Assembly: GCA_963281255.1 (NCBI GenBank)
Contig: OY725503.1
Location: 868,001 to 932,000 of the forward strand
From: Aphrocallistes beatrix
Taxonomy: Eukaryota > Porifera > Hexactinellida > Sceptrulophora > Aphrocallistidae
Reading direction: 5' to 3'
DNA length: 64,000 nucleotides
Part shown: positions 3,804 to 25,501 of the stretch, piece after piece
Numbering within the stretch: the stretch's first letter is position 1
Layout: each line of letters starts with the position of its first letter
Made by a program: the position numbers and the translations under genes
Notes under the pieces: generated by a model
The model's database searches: none
Told to the model about the DNA's origin: nothing
The model's input: the letters and a program-made list of their open reading frames with translations, nothing else

Positions 3804-5048
3804 ATGAATACTCTCATGTATTCTTACATCTTTATCTTCATTGGTATATCCGTATCTATTATTTCAGGATCAAAAGAGGTAACTCCACATGTACTGGTCA
3901 GCACGCCAAATGTTGATTCAGATCCTGACGACAATATCACAGAAGTAGCAGAGCTGTACTCAGTAGAATTCAAATGTGACACAGAAGAGATCGCTAGCTT
4001 AGGTGAGGCAACTAATGTTAACGAACTTAAACCCTCTGATGTAGGAGTAGTAGCAGCGATAGGTGATTCATTAACTGCTGCTCTATTCGCGAAAGTTAAA
4101 ACTGTCATAGGCATTCTTCCTGCAACTTTACATATTTACAGACATCGGCTGGAGTACAGGGGAGTATCGTGGAGTATAGGCGGGGATGAAGGAGCAACAA
4201 CTCTGCCTAACTTAATCAAACACTATAATCCTAATCTACAGGGATATAGTGTTAAAACAGGGAAAGAAGGTACGGCAAATGCAGCATACAATTTTGCAGT
4301 TAGTGGAGCTGTAGCTTCAGATTTGTTAGAACAAGCCACTCATTTAGTCGATAGAATTAAATCAGATAACTTAAATGGGAAATGGAAAGTGGTCACTCTG
4401 TTCATTGGGGGTAATGATCTCTGTGCAGTGTGTGAAAACACTCGTAAATTTTCGCCAGAAGTTTTTTATGAGTATATCCTTGCAGCAATACGAAAATTAT
4501 CTGAACTTGACAAGGTGTTCGTAAATTTGGTGCAAGTAGTGGATGTAACTGAATTAAATAAATTGACCAGTATTGGATGCGAAATTATGCACGAGTTATA
4601 TAAAATAATTGATACATGCGAGTGTATTGATAAATCAGTTACTCATGAATATCATAAAAAATACATGAACAAAATAATTAAACTCGAAGCATTCACTAGA
4701 AAAGAAATTGAACGCGATGATTTCACTGTTGTAATCCAACCATTTGCCGGCTCAACAAAAATGCCCAAAAAAGACCCATTCAGTTACTTCGCACCAGATT
4801 GCTTCCATTTCTCTCAGAAAGGTCATCTAAACGCAGCGGTTTCTCTGTGGAACAATATGCTGGAGCCAGTTGGGAAGAAGGAAGACAAATTTATAATGAA
4901 TCAACCAATCAAATTCCCCACAAAGGCACACCCTTACTTTTACACACATAAGAATAGTGAATCAAAAATCTTGGGAGTGAAAAGAGAGAAGATAGAAACC
5001 GAGGAATGCCAAGTGGAGGAATTGCCAGTGTCACATTTGGGACTCTAA
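3804..5048 (+). CDS. GDSL-family phospholipase B-like enzyme, copy 2 (C-terminal anchor lost)
   Basis: A paralogue of the preceding gene, 414 aa, single exon. The signal peptide and all SGNH blocks are kept: IGDSLTAAL (Ser), SWSIGGDEG, LFIGGNDLC (Asn) and DCFHFSQKG (Asp-His). The first 200 residues are almost identical to copy 1 except for a short variable stretch after residue 100; residues 210-330 are much more diverged. Near the 3' end an indel of net 4 nt shifts the frame. The hydrophobic C-terminus of copy 1 is replaced by about 20 polar residues and an earlier stop, although DNA similar to the old tail continues past it. In the ancestral frame a TAG would also end the protein. The product is therefore probably soluble and secreted. 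Confidence 0.9.
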   Translation: MNTLMYSYIFIFIGISVSIISGSKEVTPHVLVSTPNVDSDPDDNITEVAELYSVEFKCDTEEIASLGEATNVNELKPSDVGVVAAIGDSLTAALFAKVKTVIGILPATLHIYRHRLEYRGVSWSIGGDEGATTLPNLIKHYNPNLQGYSVKTGKEGTANAAYNFAVSGAVASDLLEQATHLVDRIKSDNLNGKWKVVTLFIGGNDLCAVCENTRKFSPEVFYEYILAAIRKLSELDKVFVNLVQVVDVTELNKLTSIGCEIMHELYKIIDTCECIDKSVTHEYHKKYMNKIIKLEAFTRKEIERDDFTVVIQPFAGSTKMPKKDPFSYFAPDCFHFSQKGHLNAAVSLWNNMLEPVGKKEDKFIMNQPIKFPTKAHPYFYTHKNSESKILGVKREKIETEECQVEELPVSHLGL

Positions 5049-9909: not shown

Positions 9910-10060
9910 GTGTGATTGGTAATTATAAGGAAATTGTTCAATTGCTTAAACATAGAGTAGACATAACACTAAAGTTTCGGGATCCCGGGATTGAAATATC
10001 GGGATCGGGATTATAAAACTAATCCCGGAGGTAAAATGGACCGGGATCCCGGGATTGTAA
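9910..10060. other. Spacer with GGGATCCCGGGATT repeats
   Basis: Between the MITE and the satellite lies unique sequence, then four or five degenerate copies of (CC)GGGATCCCGGGATTG, themselves palindromic, immediately before the TTATAAC satellite begins. A 165-codon open frame running into the satellite is only repeat translation. Confidence 0.7.
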
Positions 10061-12640
10061 CCCCTAGTTATAACTTCAGTTATAACTCCAGTTATAACTT
10101 TAGTTATAACTTCAGTTATAACTCCAGTTATAACTTCAGATATAACTTCAGTTATAACTTCAGTTATAACTCCAGTTATAACTTCAGATTTAACTTCAGT
10201 TATAACTCCAGTTATAACTCCAGTTATAACTTCAGTTATAACTCCAGTTATAACTTCAGTTATAACTCCAGTTATAACTTCAGTTATAACTCCAGTTATA
10301 ACTCCAGTTATAACTCCAGTTATAACTCCAGTTATAACTTCAGTTATAACTCCAGTTATAACTTCAGTTATAACTCCAGTTATAACTCCAGTTATAACTT
10401 CAGTTATAACTCCAGTTATAACTTCAGTTATAACTCCAGTTATAAGTGTTATAACAGTGTTATAACAGGTGTTATAACAGTGTTATAACAGGTGTTATAG
10501 CAGTGTTATAACAGGTGTTATAACACTGTTATAACACCTGTTATAACACTGTTATAACACTGTTATAACACTGTTATAACACCTGTTATAACACTGTTAT
10601 AACACTGTTATAACACTTATAACTGGAGTTATAACAGGTGTTATAACAGTGTTATAACAGTGTCATAACAGTGTTATAACAGGTGTTATAACAGGTGTTA
10701 TAACAGTGTTGTAACCAGGCTTTCATCCAGGCGTACTGGGCGCGCCTAGAGGCGCGTATTTGATCCCATGGATCATAATTAGGCGTATGAGTTTTTTTGG
10801 GCTAGGCGCGCGGCATACGCCTACTTAGGCGCGTGGCATAAAATATATATAAAAATGCAGAGTCTAGGCGCGTAGAAAAATGGTGGCGTCCATTTAGGCG
10901 TATGAATTTGTAAAGCTGGACTACACTGTTATAACACCTGTTTTATAACAGTGTTATAACAGGTGATAATGATAACACCTGTTATAATACTGTTATAACA
11001 CCTGTTATAACACTGTTAGAACACTGTTATAACACTTATAACTGGAGTTATAACTGGAGTTATAACTGAAATTATAACTGAAGTTATAACTGGAGTTATA
11101 ACTGGAGTTATAACTGGAGTTATAACTGGAGTTATAACTAGAGTTATAACTGAAGATATAACTGGAGTTATAACTGAAGTTATAACACTGTTATAACACC
11201 TGTTATAACACTGTTATAACACTGTTATGACACTGTTATAACACTGTTATAACACCTGTTATAACACTGTTATAACACTGTTATAACACTGTTATGACAC
11301 TGTTATAACACCTGTTATAACACTGTTATAACACCTGTTATAACACTGTTATAAAACCTGTTATAACACTGTTATAACACCTGTTATAACACTGTTATGA
11401 CACTGTTACAACACTGTTATAACACCTGTTATAACACTGTTATGACACTGTTATAACAGTGTCATAACAGTGTTATAACAGTGTCATAACAGTGCTATAA
11501 CAGTGTTATAACAGGTGTTATAACAGTGTCATAACAGTGTTATAACAGTGTCATAACAGTGCTATAACAGTGTTATAACAGGTGTTATAACAGTGTCATA
11601 ACAGTGTTATAACAGTGTCATAACAGTGTTATAACAGGTGTTATAACAGTGTTATAACAGGTGTTATAACAGTGTCATAACAGTGTTATAACAGTGTCAT
11701 AACAGTGTTATAACAGGTGTTATAACAGTGTCATAACAGTGTTATAACAGTGTCATAACAGTGCTATAACAGTGTTATAACAGGTGTTATAACAGTGTCA
11801 TAACAGTGTTATAACAGTGTCATAACAGTGTTATAACAGGTGTTATATAACAGTGTTATAACAGTGTCATAACAGTGCTATAACAGTGTTATAACAGGTG
11901 TTATAACAGTGTCATAACAGTGTTATAACAGTGTCATAACAGTGTATAACAGTGTTATAACAGTGTTATAACAGGTGTTATAACAGTGTCATAACAGTGT
12001 TATAACAGTGTTATAACAGGTGTTATAACAGTGTTGTAACAGTGTTATAACAGGTGTTATAACAGTGTCATAACAGTGTTATAACAGTGTCATAACAGTG
12101 TTATAACAGGTGTTATAACAGTGTTGTAACAGTGTCATAACAGTGTTATAACAGGTGTTATAACAGTGTTGTAACAGTGTCATAACAGTGTTATAACAGG
12201 TGTTATAACAGTGTTATAACAGGTGTTATAACAGTGTTATAACAGGTGTTATAACAGTGTTATAACAGGTGTTATAACAGTGTTATAACAGTGTCATAAC
12301 AGTGTTATAACAGTGTTATAACAGTGTTATAACAGGTGTTATAACAGTGTTATAACTTCAGTTATAACTCCAGTTATATCTTCAGTTATAACTCCAGTTA
12401 TAACTCCAGTTATAACTCCAGTTATAACTCCAGTTATAACTTCAGTTATAACTTCAGTTATAACTCCAGTTATAACTCCAGTTATAAGTGTTATAACAGT
12501 GTTCTAACAGTGTTATAACAGGTGTTATAACAGTATTATAACAGGTGTTATCATTATCACCTGTTATAACACTGTTATAAAACAGGTGTTATAACAGTGT
12601 TATAACAGTGTTATAACACCTGTTATAACACCATTTTCTT
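10061..12640. repeat. 2.6-kb palindromic satellite built on TTATAAC, with strand switches
   Basis: Two unit types share the core GTTATAAC: a 12-bp unit AGTTATAACTCC/TTC, and an 11-bp unit GTGTTATAACA(G). Orientation, read from CAGGTG versus CACCTG and CTCCAG versus CTGGAG, flips repeatedly. It is forward at 10061-10510, reverse at about 10515-10620, forward to 10705, reverse at about 10925-11455, forward at 11456-12555, then mixed. A unique 205-bp insert lies at 10716-10921. The array can fold into very large hairpins. Confidence 0.95.
10716..10921. mobile_element. Short MITE-like insert in the satellite
   Basis: A non-repeat segment with imperfect inverted ends (CCAGGCTTTCATCCAGGCGT left; ...AAGCTGG right). 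It contains four or more copies of an AGGCGCG/AGGCGTA motif. Its GC content and sequence are unlike the surrounding satellite, so it is probably an insertion. Confidence 0.45.
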
Positions 12641-14059: not shown

Positions 14060-14357
14060 CTTGTCAACAGGACAGCACTTGCGTAGGATATCCATCACGA
14101 TGATCTGGGAGGAGACGAAGAGTACCCTCCTTTCAGGTAGAGGGCCTCCCGATCCTTGGCTGAGAAGTCACTGGTGACAGACTTAGGTGTCAAGGTAACT
14201 CCTTCCCTATCCAGCTGTTCCATTATGTAATACTCCTCAGTGGGATACGCGTTCAGGACAAAAACGAGCCCAGACGGCTCGCAATGGAGCTTCAGTAAAC
14301 TGATCATTGACCGGTGTAGTCCTAAACCGCGAGCCATGACCACTAAACTGCTGCCTT
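14060..14357 (-). pseudogene. ERCC4: Truncated, frameshifted XPF/ERCC4 N-terminal fragment
   Basis: Minus-strand sequence encodes SLVVMARGLGLHRSMISLLK and on through LHCEPSGLVFVLNAYPTEE. This matches the N-terminal helicase-like region of XPF, the nucleotide-excision-repair endonuclease subunit. After ...ALYLKGG the open frame is lost. A one-base shift restores VLFVSSQIIVMDIL...CPVDK, again XPF-like, directly followed by a canonical donor GTAAGG at 14059. A retained splice donor means this is a DNA-level copy rather than a retrocopy. The true XPF start is missing: the fragment joins ABC transporter sequence at about 14357. It is too short and broken to be functional. Confidence 0.75.
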
Positions 14358-16003
14358 AATTACTTCCCCATTCCCCATCACCAGGATCTCATCATAATTT
14401 CTTACAGTCTGGATGCGATGTGCAATCGTTAGCACAGTAGAATTTTTAAACTTTGATTGCAAGAGACGTTGGATTCTGCTATCTGTAACTGTGTCAACGT
14501 AATAAGTGGCCTCATCTAGCATCAGAATCTTGGTTTGTTTCAGAATTGCTCGTGCTAGGCAGAGAAGCTGTTTTTCTCCAACACTGAAATTAGAACCACC
14601 CTCAGACACGATGAATTCAGGTTGTCCCTCGAGCCCTCGGACTTTCTCTCCCAATTCAACTTCTTCTAGCACTTGCCAAAGCTGACAATCTTCAAACAAA
14701 GAGAACGGATCCAGTGCGAATCTGATTGGTCCGCTAAAAAGAACAGGATCCTGTGGAATAATAGAAACTTGGTTTCTCAATTCATGGAGGCCTAACTCCG
14801 TTATATCGACTCCATCAATATAGATATGTCCAGACGTCAACTCAATGAGTCTGAGAAGCGCATTCTGGAGCGAACTCTTCCCAGCCCCCGTCCTACCGAC
14901 TATTCCTACTTTTTCACCACTTCTTACTTTGAAGGAGACACCTTTCAAAACAAGAGGTAGCTCAGGGGAGTATTTCATTTGAACATCTTTAAATTCGATT
15001 TCTCCTCTGGTCACATGGAAATCTGATCCATTGGAATGTAACGGAGCCTCTTGGGGCAGTTCGATATAGTCAAGCACCCGTTCTACCGATACCATGTTCA
15101 TCTCAACTTCTGCGCTTATTCGCAAAGCATGTTGTGTCAGACCCAATAAACTTAACACTTCAATAAAATGAAGGCAGACACAGAAGATGAGATGCTATCT
15201 CGTAACAGAATAAGAACGATCGCAACTAGAAGTGAGTAAATTGCGATGAGTGAATCCACCTGAAAAGCAAAGAAACGAAGATAGCCATAAAATACTCTCC
15301 AACACTTCAAGTGAGTGTCCTGATGAGTTTGCATTTTAATAATCTGGTGTGATTCCAGACTCAAAGAGTGGATTGTTGCAAGTCCGTGGAGGGTGGAAGA
15401 GACGTGAGCAATCACGTCACTTTTTGCTGCGGACTCGAGTCGTTTTAACTGACGAATAGTCCTCACCAATTGGAAACGGTAGAGAATTAGGAATCCGATT
15501 AACAAAATACATGGCACAACTGTTAACCAATGTGCTATGACTGTGGCAATAAAAGTGAATAGGAGATAAAACATCGTAAAAATATAGATTGAATAGAGTC
15601 TAGGCAGGAGGTTGTCCATGGTTGCAATATCTTTTGAAAACCTGTTCATGATTAAACCAATGGAATTTTTAAAGAAGAATGTGCTCGGAGCTCTCAACAC
15701 CCGCCACAACATTCTATAGTGGAGATTGTGAGAGGCATGTGTGGTAACCCAGGTGTCAACGATTGAAGAAGCAAACAGGAGAAGACTCAAAATTACGCAA
15801 AGTCCAATAAACAAGTATATGCGAGTATCAAGTGAAACATTAATGAGCGGATTCAATGGACTGCTAATGTTACTAGTATTATCAATCACAGATTCTGTAT
15901 TCGCTTCTATCCACCATATTAGGTAATAGTTATGTCCCAAAATCATTCCAAAAAAAAACCCCACAGACGGGATGGAAGTGTGCTTCCAAATCTCATAAGT
16001 CAC
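14343..16003 (-). pseudogene. ABCC (MRP4-like) transporter, C-terminal half fragment
   Basis: The second half of an ABC subfamily C exporter. From 15960 down it encodes TMD2 (WWIEANTES..., SSIVDTWVTTHASHNLHYRM, NRFSKDIATMDNLLPRL, RLESAAKSDVIAHVSSTLHG). From 15158 down it encodes NBD2, with Walker A GRTGAGKSS, Q-loop SIIPQDPVLFSG, signature NFSVGEKQLLCLARA, Walker B ILMLDEATYYVDT and the H-loop LTIAHR. A single-base deletion near 15156 separates the halves: the two frames overlap and align without gaps once shifted. The signature has E where Q/R is usual, and Walker B is followed by YY rather than AN. The protein stops after GEVI, where it fuses to XPF. The N-terminal residues before GMILGHN are Helentron sequence. 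Best matched to ABCC4; it is a captured or duplicated fragment, not a working gene. Confidence 0.85.
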
Positions 16004-16540
16004 CTTAAGTCACCTTTATTATACTTAATTAAATAATCAATTCCAGTCCATGTCGTTAAAAGTTATTTTATGATAGAATTGATTGATCGTAGCATATAAC
16101 ACACTTTAATTCTTGTTAACGATCAAATAATAGACTCAAAATAGCAGTATTCAATCATTTATATGAAATAGAATCGTGTGAATGGCATTATAAAAGGTTG
16201 ATAATTGATTGGTTGTCACATGAACCACTGAATTTCAATCACAAATAGTTCTTTTGATTGTATGCATAAGTCACTACTATTTTATTCCAATGTATTTGCA
16301 CTATAAAATAATCGAATTTGATTGGCCAGCACATGTTGTCACCTATCTCGAAGAGGTGTGAACTCGGCGAGGTGTGAACACCGAGGTGCACATCTCCATA
16401 TCACTTTGCATCTCCTGTAAAAATTTCAAGACGATATCTCTTAAACTCTGGTCAGGACACGAATTTCGGACGGCCGGCCGGCCGGAACATCCTCATTTTA
16501 GTACTGTGCATCCTATACTATTAGTATAGTAGCTATGCTA
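15953..16540 (-). mobile_element. Helitron/Helentron-like element, copy F, reverse orientation
   Basis: The reverse complement matches copies A and G (e.g. AATTCGATTATTTTATAGTG, GACTGGAATTGATTATTTAA). The ABC transporter fragment abuts it with no gap at CCCGTCTGTGGGGTTTTTT. No 3' hairpin on the minus strand was found on the far side of the gene fragments. Confidence 0.55.
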
Positions 16541-16558
16541 CTATACTAATACTATAGG
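16511..16558. repeat. Near-perfect 46-bp palindrome
   Basis: CCTATACTATTAGTATAGTA faces TACTATACTAATACTATAGG around GCTATGC. It is a strong cruciform candidate at the junction of the reverse (F) and forward (G) Helentron copies. A GGCCGGCCGGCC run lies just upstream (16470-16485). Confidence 0.8.
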
Positions 16559-16567
16559 AAGCACACT

Positions 16568-18562
16568 AAAAATGCTAGGATTTTTTTTTTGTCCGAATTG
16601 ATTGAAGAATTGACAAGTCGTAGAGGTACGAAAATTGGCATGTAGGTGTCAAATGATGAATCTAGGATTAAGTTCGAAGATCTAAGCGAAATGTTCACAC
16701 CTCGCCGAGATAGGTGACAAAATGTGCTGACCAATCAAATTCGATTATTTTATAATGCAAATACATTGGAATCATTTAGTAGTGACTTATGCATACAATC
16801 AAAAGAACTATTTGTGATTGAAATTCATTGGTTTATGTGAACCAATCAATTATCAGCCTTTTATAATGCAATTCACACGATTCTATTTTATATAAATGAT
16901 TGAATACTGCTATTTTGAGTCTATAATTTGTTTGTTAACAACAATTAAAGTGTGTTATATGCTACGATCAATCAATTCGATCATAAAATAACTTTTAACG
17001 ACAGGGACTGGAATTGTTTATTTAAGTATAATAATCTTTAGATCAGTGGTTCTCAACCGGGGTGCCATTTGCTTCCTCTAGGGGTGCCGCAGGCCTTACC
17101 ACACTTACATACTGCTTTATTTTATTTTCTATTGATACCATTGTCAATGTTGAATTTGATGATTGTCCTCTGACAATCCTCTGGAATAATTTATTACACA
17201 ATATTCACAATAATTTCCTAGTTTATTAATTAGTTATTCTATATAGTGGTGCGGCATAGCAAAACAATTGTGCATTTTGTGATAAAAGCACCAAAATTGG
17301 TACACATGTACTTTGATATACTATGAACATTTTTGGATATTGGGCCACCTGATACGATGCCTATGTCAGCCATGACAGCTGGCCCCAAATTATCACGTCC
17401 GATAGTATTGCCGGAATTGTCCTCTATCAATAACTTCTTTTAATCACACCATATCATATTTTTGTTAAATTCGTGTCCAGCACAAAATTTCCAGCAATTT
17501 GATATATATATTGACCATATTTGGAGAATCTTTTTGGTTGCCCGTTCCTAGCAACTGCCTGGAATGTTGAAAAATTCCGATCTCTAAATTTTTGAGGAAC
17601 CATATCGAGTGACCCCTTGTTCTTCTCGGCTAGATTCAGCGAGTACGAATATGCTAATTAGAACGCTCTGATATATCATATGTACAGAATATATGAATGT
17701 TTTACCACATTCAACTATACCTTCCACTATGGCATACCACAAAACTTTCATATATTCCACATATGACATATCAGAGCATTCTAATTAGCATATTCGTACT
17801 CGCTGAACCTAGCCGAGAAGAACAAGGGGTCACTCGATATGGTTCCTCCAAAATTTGGAGATCGGAATTTTTCAACATTCCTGGCCATTGCTAGGGACAG
17901 GCAACCAAAATAATTCTCCAAATATGGTCAATATATATATCAAATTGCTGGAAATTTCGTGCTGGACAAAATATGATCTGTTGTGATTAATTAATTAAAA
18001 GAAGTTATTGATAGGGGACCATTCCAGCAATACTATCAGACGTGGTAATTTGGGGCCAGCTGTCATGGCTGACATAGGCATCGTTTCAGGTGGCCCAATA
18101 TCCAAAAATGTTCATAGTATATCAAAGTACATGTGTACCAATTTTGGTGCTTATATCACAAAATGCACAATTGTTATAAATTTCATGCTATGCCGCACCA
18201 CTAATAATAAAGTCGTAATAATTCAAATCAATCTCCACTTTTACTATCATTTGTTCATTGCCCTGCCCAAGTCAAATTAAGGGGTGCCGCTGAAAGGTAT
18301 AAGTTTAGAAAGGGTGCCGCGAGAAGAAAAAGGTTGAGAAACACTGCTTTAGATACATAAAGTAAACAAATTTAAAAAAATAGGCTAGATATTTTCGGAT
18401 CGATATGAGAAATTTTTTGTTAACTTTTGTTTAAAATATTTATATGAAGTAAAAACAATCCCAGAATAGGTTAGATTGAGTATCTCTAGGCGCCCGCAGG
18501 GCGACTCTGCGGACACGCAGTGTCCGCAAGCCGCGCAGCGCAAGCAAGCGAAGCGCGCTTGT
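16568..18562 (+). mobile_element. Helitron/Helentron-like element, copy G, split by a hAT element
   Basis: The 5' part (16568-17043) matches copy A closely. The 3' part (18355-18562) ends in GCGGACACGCAGTGTCCGC and the hairpin AAGCGAAGCGCGCTTGT. The 1.3-kb hAT element between them carries a target duplication of this element's own sequence, which shows the order of insertion. Confidence 0.65.
17044..18346. mobile_element. hAT-type foldback element with 8-bp TSD CTTTAGAT
   Basis: The TIR is CAGTGGTTCTCAACC on the left and GGTTGAGAAACACTG on the right. Both sides carry a perfect 8-bp duplication CTTTAGAT (17036-17043 and 18347-18354), diagnostic of hAT insertion. The body is a long inverted repeat: sequence at about 17245-17660 returns in reverse at about 17780-18205 with a short loop near 17700-17770. 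It has no transposase frame, so it is non-autonomous. Confidence 0.9.
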
Positions 18563-18585: not shown

Positions 18586-21500
18586 CTATTCTGTTTGAGA
18601 TGGGAATGATTTGAAAGGCACGAGCCGTGGGAAGCAGATCAAGAGTAGTAAAATAGCGATGAAGATAACTCCAACAATAACTGAGAATGTAACCTGTGGA
18701 CCTGTGTACACGTACAGATGCGCCAACCCTACCGGTCCGACGACTCGAGCGAGAGCTCCCCCGGATGTGAACACACCCATCATCACCCCAGGGGGATGGG
18801 GACCCAGCACCTTTGAGAAGATAGTTATCAATAGAATGCCCACCATTGGGAAACTCAATGAAAATATTATAGGACCAAGCCAGTACTGAAAATCGCGTAG
18901 TTTAGGTACAGAGGAACACCAAGGCTGTGCTAAAAAGTCACACCCGACCAACTCGTGGCTGCTATTGCCTAATGTGGAAGAGGCATTTATTAGAGAAGGC
19001 TTTAAGTACGGATATTCGCCTGGCCACGGGATGAAGATATACACCCCAGTCGCAAGGACTAATAGCGCACCAATGAGTAGTGTACGTTCTTGAATTCGTT
19101 TAACCAAAACCTTTGCTACGGTAAGAACGATTAATGATAGAACACCGTTGATAGCGAAGATGATGTTATTATAGAAAATAGCTTCCTGGTTACTCCATGC
19201 GAACTCGTCCATCGAGTAAGGGGTGATAAGTGTCTCAAATGATGTCCATACCATTGTAAATAAACCGCATTCGAATATGCATATAGCAGCAGCTAATCTG
19301 TCGAATGGATGAGATGGAGCCTTCCTATCATTTATTAGAGGGGTTTCCTCGCCGTTTAAAGTTGGAGAGTTTCGTTGTGATTTCTTCTTCGAGTTATCTT
19401 TGAACCAGATGAAAAAAATTAAATTACATACCCCCAACACTGTACAAAGGTACGCCGGTCCTGTGTACAGGTTGAACATCAACCGCAGATGTGGTATCGT
19501 GAGACCCGGGTACCCGATAGGTTGGAAGATAAACCCGACCACGGGACCAAGGATAAATCCTAAAGATCTGGCGACGCTTAGATTCGCGAGCGAACTGGTT
19601 CGTTCTTTTTCGGTTGTAGCAGTTGAAATGAATGCACGCATCACTGAAGTCATTCCGAAACTGAATCCGATGAAAAACCGCGAAACAAGTACAATATATA
19701 TAGCAAGAGAAGATGGAAATATGTTGCAATAAGCGTATAATATATTAGATAGAGAAGACAGCAGTAAAGCGAAAGCAATAGGCTCCCTTGCAGGACGAAA
19801 CTGGGACCAAAATCCGAATAAAGGAGCTGAAATGAATTGTCCAATTGAAAATGCAGCTACGACCCAGCCATAGTAACTCTTTGATGTGTTCTGATTGATG
19901 GGTGTGAAGTTAGCAGCACGTTCAGCAGCGAAAAGTGAGCAGGGTATAATTAGTCCCAGTTTCACAGTGCCTTGTAGGATCTTGATCAAATTTGAAACAG
20001 AACATTAAGAGCGAGGTAGCTTTGTGTCATTTTAATATCTAACGCCTACTAATTAAAACCACTTGACAATGACGATGCAAATTTGATGAAATTTCTATAG
20101 GATTTCAGTATAGCTCAAAGTGAGCAGGGTATAACTATTTCTAGTTTCACAGTACCTTGTGGGATCTTGATCAAATTTGAAATAGAACATTATGAGCGAG
20201 GTAGCTTTGTGTCATTTTAATATCTAACACCTCCTGATTAAAACCACTTGACAATGACGATGCAAATTTGATGAAATTTCTATAGGATTTCAGTATAGCT
20301 CAAAGTGAGCAGGGTATAACTATTTCTAGTTTCACAGTACCTTGTGGGATCTTGATCAAATTTGAAATAGAACATTATGAGCGAGGTAGCTTTGTGTCAT
20401 TTTAATATCTAACACCTCCTGATTAAAACCACTTGACAATGACGATGCAAATTTGATGAAATTTCTATAGGATTTCAGTATAGCTCAAAGTGAGCAGGGT
20501 ATAACTAGTTCTAGTTTCGCAGTGCCTTGTAGGATCTTGATCAAATTTGAAACAGAACATTACAGGCGGGGTAGCTTTGTGTCATTTTAATATCTAACGG
20601 CTACTGATTAAAACCACTTGGCAATGACGATGCAAATTTGATGAAATTTCTATAGGATTTCAGTATAGCTCAAAGTGAGCAGGGTATAACTAGTTCTAGT
20701 TTCGCAGTGCCTTGTGGGATCTTGGTCAAATTTGAGACAGGACATTATGAGCGAGGTAGCTTTGTGTCATTTTAATATCTAACACCTCTCTATTGAAAAA
20801 TATTGCGACAACAGTCACCTGATATTTCAAAGCCAAATGTGACCATGACCAACCGTTGGGTCATGACGTCATTAGAATTGAATACATATGAGTATAATAT
20901 AAGTGTTAATTCATGATATTAAATTCTACAAATTACTAATAGTGCTTCCGATCTTCTGGAATTTCAATGTGCAGAGGAAACCTGGAATTCATACAGTTTA
21001 ATGCGATGATTTCGAGTCTTGGTCAAACCTGTTTATGATTATCGTGAGATTAACATCCAGTGAAACCAAAACTTAGTTTTCCGCGGATGATGATGAATAT
21101 GGACTAATACAATATAACTAATTAATTGATATCACTTATGATTAGCCAATGTGAAAATAAATGTAATATGGTTTCAAATGAAAATAGCATATTTCCAAAA
21201 TATAGTCATATTTAAATGATAAAACTATCTAAAATCACTAAAATTTGATACTTATACAATTCACTGTCAATAAATCGATTTGGTTCATTTGATGTCTGCA
21301 GATTACTCGAATGGTCAGTTTTTATTCTTAGGATTTCCATCATAGCTAAATAGATTTTAAAATTCTTTTTTTAAAATTTTAGAAGATGATGATAACAAAT
21401 TTATCATTTGTCAGAATCTACCGTCGAAGATACTAAATGCTTTATCGAAATTTGAATTGTGTAAATTCACTGTACTGGAAAATCTTAACATGACTAGAAA

Positions 21501-24500
21501 TTGGCGTAATCCGTTTGGTTTCTGGGGAAAGCTCGCAAAGATGGTATATGGTCGAAATCGTCTAGAACTACGAGCAAAGCTTATGAATATATGGCGCAAC
21601 AACAGATACAACATTCAATCACAGGTTCAAACAAATTTTATCACTACATCCTTACCTATAAGTATTAAATTTTCTGATCTACCGTGTGAAATTTCTTCAG
21701 ATTTTGTAAGTATATCGTGTCCAAGTTCGCCATTAGCAGAAAATAATTTTCGTGATGATGCAATCTTATCAAATAGGAATGATGCAACCCATGAGATTGA
21801 ACAAGGCGAAATTCATTTAACAATGCATGAATGGTTAAGAATCTCAAAGTTTTTGGAAATTAAGAACAAATTAGAACCAGAATGGACAAACATATTGAAT
21901 GAAAAGATGTCAATGAAATATCCATTTTGTGTACTAAAGTTCTTATATCATAGGATTAATAAGAATAGTACAAATAGCAATAAATGCTCTTTTCTTGTAG
22001 CTGCCGCAATTTGCAAATTTAGCGATTGTTTTAAGTTCAAGTTTATAATGGAAGAACCTGAAACGAATGCAAATAATGTTTTCGTAATTACATATTTTGT
22101 CACTGGATCAATTTCAAAAGATCATTTCGCGAATCAAGTATCACAAAGCCGTCATTTAGCAGGCGAGAGAAGGGAAACTATATCTGAACAACTCGAGAAT
22201 AGAAGTGTTTCAAATTTCCATTATTCTCTGTTCACTAAACCTGACATTTTTACTGCTGCAAAACATGGTAACTTTAATTCTTTGCATTCAACTGATGTAC
22301 TCAGAAAAGTAAAATCCCAACACATGTCAAAATCCAGGTTTAACAATGACATGTGGCAAGACATAGTCAGTACCCAACTATCTTTTAAAAGCACTATCAT
22401 AGGTGACAAAATGAATGGTTATATTCAAACAATATCCCATACTCCATTCGTAATTCACTTGTATAGCGAAGAACAAATCTCTTTATTGAAATACTTGGAA
22501 AAGAAAAGTTTGACATTTCATCTTGATGCAACTGGCTCGGTCGTTAGAAAGTTAGAGAAGTCTCAAGATAGAATACTCTACTATGCGTTATCTGTTCAAC
22601 ATCCTGAATCCCATGTAAGCCCAATTCCACTTGCAGAAATGATATCAAGCAAACAAACAAATGTGGAAATATCACATTTTCTTAAGCAGTGGCTGTATGA
22701 TGTCAAGAAAGTTACAAACAGTGAAGTTACACCAAGTCAAGTAGAAGTTGATTATAACTGGGCAATGTTGCACAGCGTTTGCAATAGTTTCAATAAACAA
22801 ACTCTAGAAGATTATCTGGCTACATCTTGGCAAGTTATTCATACTCCAAAATCGATCAAACCCCCGAAAACGATCATTCACATATGTTCAGCACACATCA
22901 TGAACCGCTTAAGCTACAAACTCAGCCGTAAATTTAGAATCGATCAACTACGAAAAAGAAAAGTCATGTTTATAATGGCACGATTTGTTAGCTGTACAGC
23001 GTTAGACGAACTGAAGCAACTTTTTGTTGCATTATGTATCACAAGTCTAGCTAAAAAGAATTACCCAGAAATTGAGGATTTTTTTTCATAAGCTTGACAA
23101 TGCCATTAGCCTAAGTAATGACGAATATAATATTGATCTGGAATATTTGGAAGACCTTGATGAAGAACTAGACAATAATTTGGGAGATAGCAATACCTAT
23201 AAAACAAGATCACCATTTGGTATCTATTTTCAGAGCGAACTAAACAAATGCACACAATTTATTACTGAATTAGAGAAGAAAAAACGGACCGACCATTGCA
23301 AGGAAAACATACACTTTCTACCGAGTCTACCCACATTCCTAGTAACACATTACATGCCCATATGTTCCCTCTGGTCAGGAATCATATTAGGTCCGAATTT
23401 ATTTCCAAATAGTGCAAGAATTACATTTACAAATGCGGTCGCTGAGAACTGGATGAGAATTGTCAAAATTACAAAACGAATCCAAACTAAGGCCGGGAGA
23501 TTTTATTCGTAAAATACGCGAAGACATTGTCGGTAGAATCAGAGCATTTCGGTTTGCATTCGAACCATTAAGTGATAAAATTATAAAAAGAAGAAAAATA
23601 AAATTCAGAAGCGATGATCAAATAGAAGAAATTTGGGCGAAAAAAAAAAAGAAGCGAAGTTATTTTGAACCTGGAAAGGTTTCAACTTCTCAATCACTAT
23701 CCAATCGAATCCCTGCCATCCCTCCTTGTTCTGAATCCTATCTACAAGTGATCGAAATCCTTCAGCTGAACATAAACCAATCGGAAAAATGGAGCAATGC
23801 ATTATGATGATAGCCTTGATGACGAACCTATCTCCGTTGAAGGGATTACATTCTTTTATCACGGAAATTTCAAGCCAGTAACACAAAGCTGGCAGAAAGA
23901 AAAATGCAAATTTCTGCAAATGACGTATACAAAGGGTGTTTTGTATAAGAACGAAGCTATTGAAAAATCCCTGGAAATTCGACAGCTAATACCTTCTAGA
24001 GAGAAAAGAATCTCACCAGATGGCAATTGCCTATTTAGATCACTGTCTTACGTAATTGCAGGGACAGATAGCTATCACCAACAAATAAGAGGGCTCTTAA
24101 TACAAAAAATGAAAGGAGAATATAGAGAAACATGCTCCAAGTATTGTAAAGCTCGAAATGATTTGCTACCCGAAGCGCGTTGCAACACAATAGAAGAATA
24201 TCTCAAAATAGCTTGATGGACCGATTAGGATCTTGGGGTACTGACTTAGAAATATTCTTAGCAGCACAGATCCTAGGTACTGACATTTTTGTCTACAAAG
24301 ATGAAAGCAAATGTTGGATGAAATTTTCAGGGTATGGGTTCAATGATAAACATTCTTCTCATAACCTGACAGAGACTAGGATTTACCTGAGATTGTTTAG
24401 AAATCATTTTCAACCAGTAATACAGGTGAAAGAAGTTGGAAGCATACAAATTGGATCACAAACCAAACTAATTTGATCATTTAGGATGAAAATGTTAGTT

Positions 24501-25501
24501 AACGATATTTACATGTACAAGGATTAGCCTTGACACATACATTAGGATAGCGTATTGTGAAATTAGAAGCTATAGAATCATCTAAATGTGTTATATTGTT
24601 AGTCAGTAATCAATTCAATAATTGCACATTGCAAACTAACTATAGTGAGTTAAATAGAAATGTCCATTTTTTGCATCGTCATTGTCATGTGGTTTTAATC
24701 GGGAGGTGTTAGATATTAAAATGATACAAAGCTACCTCGCTCATAATGTCCTGTCTCAAATTTGACCAAGATCCCACAAGGCACTGCGAAACTAGAACTA
24801 GTTATACCCTGCTCACTTTGAGTTATACTGAAATCCTATAGAAATTTCATCAAATTTGCATCGTCATTGTCAAGTGGTTTTAATCAGTAGCCGTTAGATA
24901 TTAAAATGACACAAAGCTACCCCGCCTGTAATGTTCTGTTTCAAATTTGATCAAGATCCTACAAGGCACTGCGAAACTAGAACTAGTTATACCCTGCTCA
25001 CTTTGAGCTATACTGAAATCCTATAGAAATTTCATCAAATTTGCATCGTCATTGCCAAGTGGTTTTAATCGGGAGGTGTTAGATATTAAAATGACACAAA
25101 GCTACCTCGCTTATAATGTTCTGTTTCAAATTTGATCAAGATCCTACGAGGCACTGTGAAACTGGGACTAATTATACCCTGCTCACTTTTCGCTGCTGAA
25201 CGTGCTGCTAACTTCACACCCATTTCTGATTGAGAGTTTTGAGGTAAGGGTAGATATTCGTTACAACAATCGTGAAGCTGATAGCACTTAAGAACATTGT
25301 CAAATAGATCAAACGAATTGACCACCATTTCTTCGAGTTTGCGATTGAAGGAGTGTCTTTAGCTTGAATTAATTCTCCACTCTTATCTGCATTGATAGGC
25401 ATATTGACAGGAAGTGATTGCGATTTCATGTTCACACTGTTCTCACTTGGAACAACTGATTCAGCAATTTCATCTTTCTCCTGTGTAGAAGACTGGATCA
25501 T
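18586..25501 (-). CDS. MFSD8: MFSD8/CLN7-like lysosomal transporter, reading frame split by a transposon
   Basis: The coding parts are 25501-25224 (N-terminus) and 19888-18586. Joined at the 9-bp target duplication they give one open frame of 526 codons plus stop (human family member about 518 aa). The first part has a charged cytoplasmic N-terminus (about 60 aa) and then SIRLIYLTMFLSAISFTIVV, the first membrane helix. The second part has GWVVAAFSIGQF (helix 2), SVMRAFISTATTEKERTSSLAN (MFS loop motif), SLGFILGPVVGF, a loop with an acidic dileucine EETPLI (lysosomal sorting type), ETLITPYSMDEFAWSNQEA, a glycosylatable lumenal loop (NASSTLGNSS) and GVMMGVFTSGGALARVVGP. The family are 12-helix major facilitator proteins of lysosomes. 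The ATG at 25501 is preceded by an in-frame TAG. No substitution breaks the frame; the only lesion is the 5.3-kb insertion. Confidence 0.9.
19898..20795 (+). repeat. Left inverted terminal region with five 185-bp units
   Basis: The marker GTGAGCAGGGTATAA occurs at 19935, 20120, 20305, 20490 and 20675, an exact 185-bp period. The units differ by a few substitutions each. Confidence 0.95.
21457..23512 (+). pseudogene. MULE/NOF-like transposase remnant
   Basis: The open frame runs 21457-23091 (first ATG 21490, 533 aa from there) and continues one frame over from about 23090 to 23512. The break falls in a run of eight T at about 23081-23088. Residues numbered from 21457 suggest a DDE core: Asp357 in FHLDATGSVVRK, Asp432 in VEVDYNWAMLHSV, a C-x2-H motif at 477-480 (ICSAHIMNRL), and a late Glu in TNAVAENWMRIVK (codon at 23444) in the second frame. 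LDATG followed by a YYALSV strand, then DYNW, is the pattern I associate with NOF-type/MULE-related animal transposases. It should cut and rejoin the element's ends in the nucleus. At least one frameshift makes this copy inactive. Confidence 0.65.
23460..24476 (+). pseudogene. OTU-type cysteine protease domain of the transposon (frameshifted)
   Basis: Three overlapping frames (23460-23807, 23797-24216, 24180-24476) follow the transposase. The second contains RISPDGNCLFRSLSYVIAG, the OTU catalytic Asp-Gly-Asn-Cys block. The third contains GSWGTDLEIFLAAQILGTDI and ends in LRLFRNHFQPV with the expected C-terminal His. OTU domains are deubiquitinating cysteine proteases. Their attachment to large eukaryotic transposons is known in general, but the role in transposition is not. 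Frameshifts near 23500, 23800 and 24205 (in CTCAAAATAGC) break it. In the intact ancestor it was probably the C-terminal part of the transposase protein. Confidence 0.7.
24640..25223 (-). repeat. Right inverted terminal region with three 185-bp units
   Basis: The marker complement TTATACCCTGCTCAC occurs so that its GCTCAC is at 24811, 24996 and 25181, again an exact 185-bp period. The orientation is opposite to the left region. Confidence 0.95.

Follow-up and report, generated by a model that had tools for sequence, protein, structure and literature searches.

A young Foldback-type transposon in an MFSD8-like gene of the sponge Aphrocallistes beatrix

How can a gene that has been split by a transposon still carry an otherwise flawless reading frame? 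The question is raised by a 64,000-nt stretch of Aphrocallistes beatrix contig OY725503.1 (the window; coordinates below are positions in it), in which a 5,326-bp element of Foldback type interrupts an MFSD8-like transporter gene. The sequence points, with good probability, to a young Foldback-type insertion, most likely disabling an MFSD8-like paralogue, as the best explanation overall. The event is ordinary in kind and unusually clean in state.

The interrupted gene and its insert

The gene lies in two parts of 278 nt and 1,303 nt on either side of the element (Table 1). Joined at the 9-bp sequence TTCTGATTG, these parts give 1,581 nt in one open frame of 527 codons, stop included, with no internal stops. 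The 3′ part matches the Pfam model MFS_1 (PF07690) on 18589-19887 with an E value of 2.1e-31, which places the product among the MFS transporters. The coding sequence runs uninterrupted through the insertion site both in the C19 paralogue and in P0002-P0007, six predicted relatives, which rules out an ancestral intron at this position. Read without splicing, the interrupted gene reaches a stop after 95 amino acids (...LNQKWV), inside the tip of the element. Because this stop precedes most of the transporter, the interrupted allele is most likely loss-of-function.

The tips of the insert, read inward from 19898 and 25223, are identical over 75 bp, and the arms 19898-20451 and 24670-25223 are 94% complementary over 554 nt. 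Long inverted ends of tandem direct repeats and a target duplication of 8-10 bp are the structural marks of a Foldback-type element, and both are present here, the duplication being exactly 9 bp in most two-ended copies of the family (below). Beyond the 9-bp TTCTGATTG, one extra base (A) matches too.

A 301-base probe from the left junction gave at least 145 matches in the 100.5-Mb genome, tandem units being counted apart. Among the matches listed, 34 rows reach the element tip, two of them from the window locus, and those other than the query start at the element's first base or at most 4 bases outside it. The stretches that we cut out cover 32 of the 34 tip rows (the tips at C15:3008782 and C12:3282417 were left out) and hold 14 two-ended copies, the window copy included, together with 4 one-ended copies (L032, L033, L034 and L036). 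An exact 9-bp duplication, each of different sequence, flanks 12 of the 14 two-ended copies, L020 and L023 being those without one; its recurrence at the same tips rules out chance as the origin of the duplication in the window. The window copy is the only one of the 12 that sits inside a long conserved frame (292 codons, with 600-base flanks). Across the other 11 sites the longest frames are of 138 codons (L027, visibly repetitive) and 115 codons (L022, with no Pfam match), and joining the flanks of L020, one of the copies that lack a duplication, gives a cross-site frame of 166 codons, also with no Pfam match. An earlier note on this DNA had described a single clean insertion of 5,326 bp, with inverted ends identical at their tips and a true 9-bp target duplication, in a coding frame that is otherwise intact when 25501-25224 is joined to 19888-18586. 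Joining the two parts and comparing the family upheld this description throughout.

The same note had named the gene MFSD8/CLN7. Membership in the MFSD8-like transporter family stands: a protein search recovered the six uninterrupted relatives at 52-60% identity, and several of the more distant matches bear the NCBI name MFSD8-like. The narrower name does not. In a 22-protein tree, drawn from its midpoint without an outgroup, the window gene falls outside the animal MFSD8 group and together with P0002-P0007 (support 98/96), and it is instead the C1 gene that lies with ten mostly bilaterian proteins, including named MFSD8-like ones (split 100/99). The C11 paralogue falls in a group that includes a protein of Oopsacas minuta, a glass sponge (100/100). 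By this comparison, the interrupted gene appears to be a second, sponge-type MFSD8-like paralogue, and C1 appears to hold, in intact form, the gene nearest canonical MFSD8. A PDB search with the 3′ part of the gene returned MFSD10 alone (E 1.3e-7), and an NCBIfam search returned 15 transporter models, all far below their cut-offs. Next to the C11 paralogue (L019, C11:4434000-4439500) there is a 527-amino-acid frame, which we take from its sequence to be ATP-synthase-beta-like.

Intact MFSD8-family genes elsewhere in the genome share 45% and 42% identity with the window gene. The sole other close copy found in the genome is C19, 91% identical over 1,805 aligned columns that include 186 bases upstream of the ATG. 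C19 presents the empty site, running through the insertion point with no insert, and is itself broken by a 4-base and a 2-base deletion and by a stop at codon 520, which rules out an intact nearest duplicate. The second uninterrupted copy for which a search had been proposed is thus found among the intact family genes and not in the nearest copy; nor, with C19 broken, is the window gene shown to be a dead duplicate of an intact gene. Between the window gene and C19, nonsynonymous divergence (dN) is 0.054 and synonymous divergence (dS) 0.140 over 518 codons (dN/dS 0.39); the corresponding values are 0.065/0.120 for the 5′ part (88 codons) and 0.052/0.144 for the 3′ part.

Table 1. Features of the interrupted gene and of the inserted element
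Feature	Position	Strand	Details
MFSD8-like gene, 5′ coding part	25224..25501	-	92 codons + two bases; ATG at 25501
MFSD8-like gene, 3′ coding part to stop	18586..19888	-	carries PF07690 MFS_1
Foldback-type transposon copy	19898..25223	+	5,326 bp; transposase and gene on opposite strands
9-bp target duplication TTCTGATTG, left copy	19889..19897		sequence
9-bp target duplication TTCTGATTG, right copy	25224..25232		sequence
Left inverted arm	19898..20798	+	185-bp unit x4.6 at 19932-20788
Right inverted arm	24670..25223	-	185-bp unit x2.8 at 24670-25189
Broken transposase frame, N-terminal 544 amino acids	21457..23091	+	motifs HLDATG, EVDYNWAM, HICSAH
Frameshifted transposase remainder with OTU-like region	23092..24476	+	sub-cut-off match in 23791-24216, E 0.0049
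Hypothetical 5′ splice site TGG/GTGTGA, right tip	25218..25219	-	sequence and splice model
Hypothetical branch-point-like CTGCTAAC, left tip	19909..19916	-	sequence; resembles general consensus
Hypothetical 3′ splice site CAATCAG/AAC, left duplication	19891..19892	-	splice model

Age of the insertion and state of the gene

The internal part of the window copy was aligned with that of seven other copies, among which L021 stands for five near-identical ones. In the 3,858 columns with at least three other letters, the window copy carries 9 private substitutions (0.23%), a divergence that sets an upper bound on the age of the insertion, as some of these changes may predate it. A lesion rate for the gene was taken from the three lesions of C19, placed over all, or over the last 30%, of a branch equal to half of dS (rough assumptions). 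At this rate the gene would be expected to have gained 0.10-0.33 lesions since the insertion, and the probability of finding none is 0.90-0.72. By these estimates the insertion is young, and, because so few lesions are expected, youth alone can account for the clean frame. The earlier description of the element as a young Foldback-type transposon is borne out by the private substitutions and by the structure of the family. Its corollary, that an intact frame means an insertion that is recent, polymorphic or tolerated through splicing, holds for the first term; the frame requires neither polymorphism nor splicing.

In the explanation that we propose, an intronless MFSD8-like gene received, after codon 92, a copy of a Foldback-type DNA transposon that has been active recently. 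The copy moved by cut and paste, and staggered cleavage left the 9-bp duplication, as the anatomy of the locus shows. Given its several frameshifts, the inserted copy would have been unable, then or soon after, to make its own transposase; near-identical copies elsewhere, whose frames are open, could have moved it in trans. The read-through product would end at 95 residues, most likely leaving a loss-of-function allele, and the undamaged look of the gene would come from the youth of the insertion, as the low divergence suggests, and not from continuing protection of the frame.

Two predicted proteins, P0001 and P0026, listed with another longest contig (635,302 nt; that of the window is 4,072,311 nt), match frames of the window. 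The left junction reappears on the second contig in P0001, and the broken transposase frame in P0026; since the P0026 frame ends where the window transposase frame ends, the first frameshift is no isolated error. Judged by these matches, the insertion is present in another assembly or version, and a lone assembly artefact is unlikely, though the second contig may come from the same specimen.

Two observations nevertheless weigh against a young insertion that disabled the gene. If all four private frameshifts of the window copy postdate the insertion, the gene should hold about 2.1 lesions and holds none (P 0.12), which is a weak hint that the frame was protected, or that the copy was already broken when it jumped, or that sequence errors are involved. 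In addition, a splice that would keep the frame exists on paper, in our splice model.

It is possible, though not probable, that the insertion is a rare polymorphism, heterozygous or somatic, and that an intact gene persists on the other haplotype. Both its young age and the gene without a lesion would fit such an insertion. The same left junction on the second contig does not, and no uninterrupted allele was found in the assembly searched, although assemblies often hold one haplotype.

We regard as doubtful the idea that the gene was dispensable beforehand and that the insertion struck it under relaxed selection. It is true that the nearest paralogue is broken too, and that, among the 57 amino-acid differences between the two copies, only the window gene differs from the relatives in 13 and only C19 in 18 (only the window gene matches a relative at 18, only C19 at 13, both at 6 and neither at 20). 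The dN/dS of 0.39 argues the other way, as do the columns that show no variation among the six relatives: of 264 such columns the window copy keeps 212 and C19 206. Constraint seems to have acted on both copies for a large part of their history, and on the window copy little more than on C19.

A rescue by splicing is unlikely. In this scheme the element would leave the pre-mRNA as a 5,329-nt intron (25219 to 19891, minus strand), with a donor in the right tip, the branch-point-like CTGCTAAC in the left tip and an acceptor in the target duplication, at the cost of an added Lys-Trp. The modeled message (...LNQKWNTSKSYYGW) is in frame without an early stop, its two extra codons leaving the protein otherwise whole. 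Donors in the CDKAL1-like gene of the window are loose, so GTGTGA is not outside their range (exon edges were set by eye against the human sequence), and the broken state of the sole other close gene copy would favor rescue. PMC9860276 describes introners that bring one splice site with them and draw the other from the duplication, and introners that add few codons. However, the arrangement is less remarkable than it may seem. When insertion was modeled at 1,491 sites in the gene, 339 (22.7%) were rescued equally by use of the first AG in a 30-nt stretch; the figure is 109 (7.3%) if this AG must lie inside the duplication and 521 if any AG in the 30 nt may serve. Nor is GTGTGAAG a kept splice signal, since it is retained in 21 of the 28 tips of the 14 copies, and in the remaining 7 the GT is replaced by AT or CT. 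None of the other 11 duplication-bearing copies lies in a cross-site frame of more than 138 codons, and if the tips paired perfectly, a hairpin would hide both splice sites. The strongest form of the proposal, in which the mirrored tips carry donor and branch site, the duplication supplies the acceptor and the insertion becomes a removable intron in one step, is quite unlikely; if true, it would mean that an intron of an animal gene was born at a stroke and that the MFSD8-like protein was saved with two extra residues.

A replaced N terminus, with transcription from the element and a start in the left arm putting about 23 element-coded residues in place of the first 92, is highly improbable: the 3′ frame does stay open into the left arm, and the gene caller's P0001 (459 amino acids) has its start codon 68 bp inside the element, but the open extension contains no ATG, P0001 begins at a Val codon and would need a non-ATG start, and the lost part includes a hydrophobic stretch conserved in six relatives.

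For the young, probably disabling insertion that we favor, a clean gene-splitting insert, its empty site, its family and near-identical open copies within one genome provide material to time a transposon burst. The same locus lets an early-branching animal be used to ask whether a DNA transposon becomes an intron in one step.

The transposase and neighboring features

Five copies of the family, L021, L022, L023, L024 and L025, each hold an open stretch of 1,041 codons and are mutually 99.8-100% identical in their longest pairwise alignments. That of L021 was read as a 1,009-amino-acid protein, in which an OTU-like domain (857-964, E 2.8e-9) is the only match above a Pfam cut-off. Its motifs HLDATG, EVDYSWAM, HICSAHI and AENWMRI, at 355, 430, 475 and 662, may contain the catalytic residues. 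Their order, which resembles the D, D, C-x2-H, E order of Mutator and some other DDE groups, holds in the majority of the long relatives, as far away as a sea cucumber and a fish protein. Relatives come mainly from 'ena' assemblies and also from sea cucumber and medaka, a whitefly relative being very distant. Among distant relatives, P0052 carries a UCH domain, P0058 OTU and Ulp1 domains and P0059 a Ulp1 domain, so that ubiquitin/SUMO-protease-like domains are paired repeatedly with relatives of this transposase.

The window copy has lost the open frame. A +1 within a T run, which the seven copies compared do not have, terminates its N-terminal frame. In all, four frameshifts set it apart from these seven: +1 at 23079, -8 at 23467, -1 at 23736 and -1 at 24209. 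It shares another, -1 at 23789, with L020, L035, L037 and L038, four of the seven. Two more differences, a gap of 30 bases at 21044 and a +2 at 24533, fall outside the transposase frame.

The MULE transposase domain (PF10551) gave no match in the L021 frame or in eight relatives. A search of the genome listed 121 PF10551 matches (150 of 168 candidates scored), none of them at the window locus, and hhalign, run against a single canonical MULE from this genome, gave no significant match (probability 0.1%, E 0.51). A canonical MULE thus finds no support. The L021 protein has no Pfam integrase match up to E 1 and no Pfam PHD finger; the only PHD match is in P0054, a sea cucumber relative, at E 3.3e-4 and 21 bits, under the 24-bit cut-off. 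A PDB search with the L021 protein gave weak OTU-type matches alone, the best at E 0.015. With PF10551 unmatched and the MULE profile comparison not significant, we name the element Foldback-type by structure alone and leave its superfamily unassigned by sequence. A transposase group that Pfam sees only through an OTU-like domain merits proper classification.

More distant relatives of the transposase region, at 64-71% DNA identity, lie at C15:2632825, C11:1131774, C3:6286116, C17:1534415 and other places, and several lineages of this transposon seem to share the genome. Downstream of the gene are two inverted-repeat units, probably other hairpin-type elements. One spans 16026-17028, with arms 16026-16214/16840-17028 (94%) and 16216-16363/16693-16840 (93%); the other spans 17263-18175, with arms 17263-17444/17994-18175 (96%) and 17474-17692/17750-17968 (92%).

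The window also holds two similar neighboring frames at 934-2223 and 3804-5048 (plus strand), the first of which matches the Pfam GDSL lipase model. At 14343-16009 (minus strand) there are pieces of an ABC transporter, a transmembrane region and an ATPase domain; no other ABC transporter half was noticed among the frames listed for 13.5-18.4 kb. A 165-amino-acid frame of SYNF/SYNS repeats at 9991-10488 (plus strand) resembles a tandem DNA repeat more than a clear gene.

Comparison with known systems

Like animal MFSD8/CLN7, the product of the window gene is a transporter of this family with relatives named MFSD8-like, and it differs from it in forming a separate clade with P0002-P0007, the C1 gene being the one on the bilaterian side. 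For the element itself, a literature search gave no paper among the matches listed, which is not proof of absence.

With introners the element shares DNA-transposon ends, a duplication able to donate a splice site and few added codons, as these are set out in PMC9860276. It is far longer than the family medians of 30-654 nt given there, and its family shows no sign of a widespread presence in coding frames and has no kept donor in its tips. With one of 12 duplication-bearing copies in a long conserved frame (600-base flanks) and the donor not kept, an introner family is not supported. A weaker parallel is the large CACTA element of soybean that lies inside an intron and, in the account of PMC4219821, is spliced out with it.

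OTU and Ulp1 domains are reported from Ginger1 and some other transposons (PMC2836005). As in Ginger1, an OTU cysteine-protease domain lies C-terminal to the transposase here, whereas Ginger1 transposases are described as integrase-like (PMC2836005) and the present protein has no Pfam integrase match at the threshold above. Rehavkus, by its description in PMC6446971, has 9-bp duplications, a minisatellite before its 3′ end and a PHD finger. Set against that description, our element is similar in its 9-bp duplication, single frame and tandem repeat near an inverted end, and dissimilar in that the L021 protein has no PHD finger. The 9-bp duplication also falls within the 8-11 bp that PMC6446971 gives for Mutator-like elements.

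Foldback elements are described in PMC4079207 as mostly seeming to be Mutator members, with exceptions. In its account Tetris of Drosophila virilis has copies without a conserved frame, in contrast to the open frames found here. Tm1 of root-knot nematodes, according to PMC3169594, has composite ends, 9-bp duplications, a Phantom-like transposase with a MULE domain, and both coding members and members like miniature inverted-repeat transposable elements. Its repeat unit is about 14 bp, compared with 185 bp in our element, and its transposase contrasts with the OTU-like one found here, in which Pfam recognizes no MULE domain (PMC3169594). What our element has in common with both Tm1 (PMC3169594) and Tetris (PMC4079207), as these sources present them, is inverted ends with internal repeats and target duplications of 8-10 bp, mostly 9 bp.

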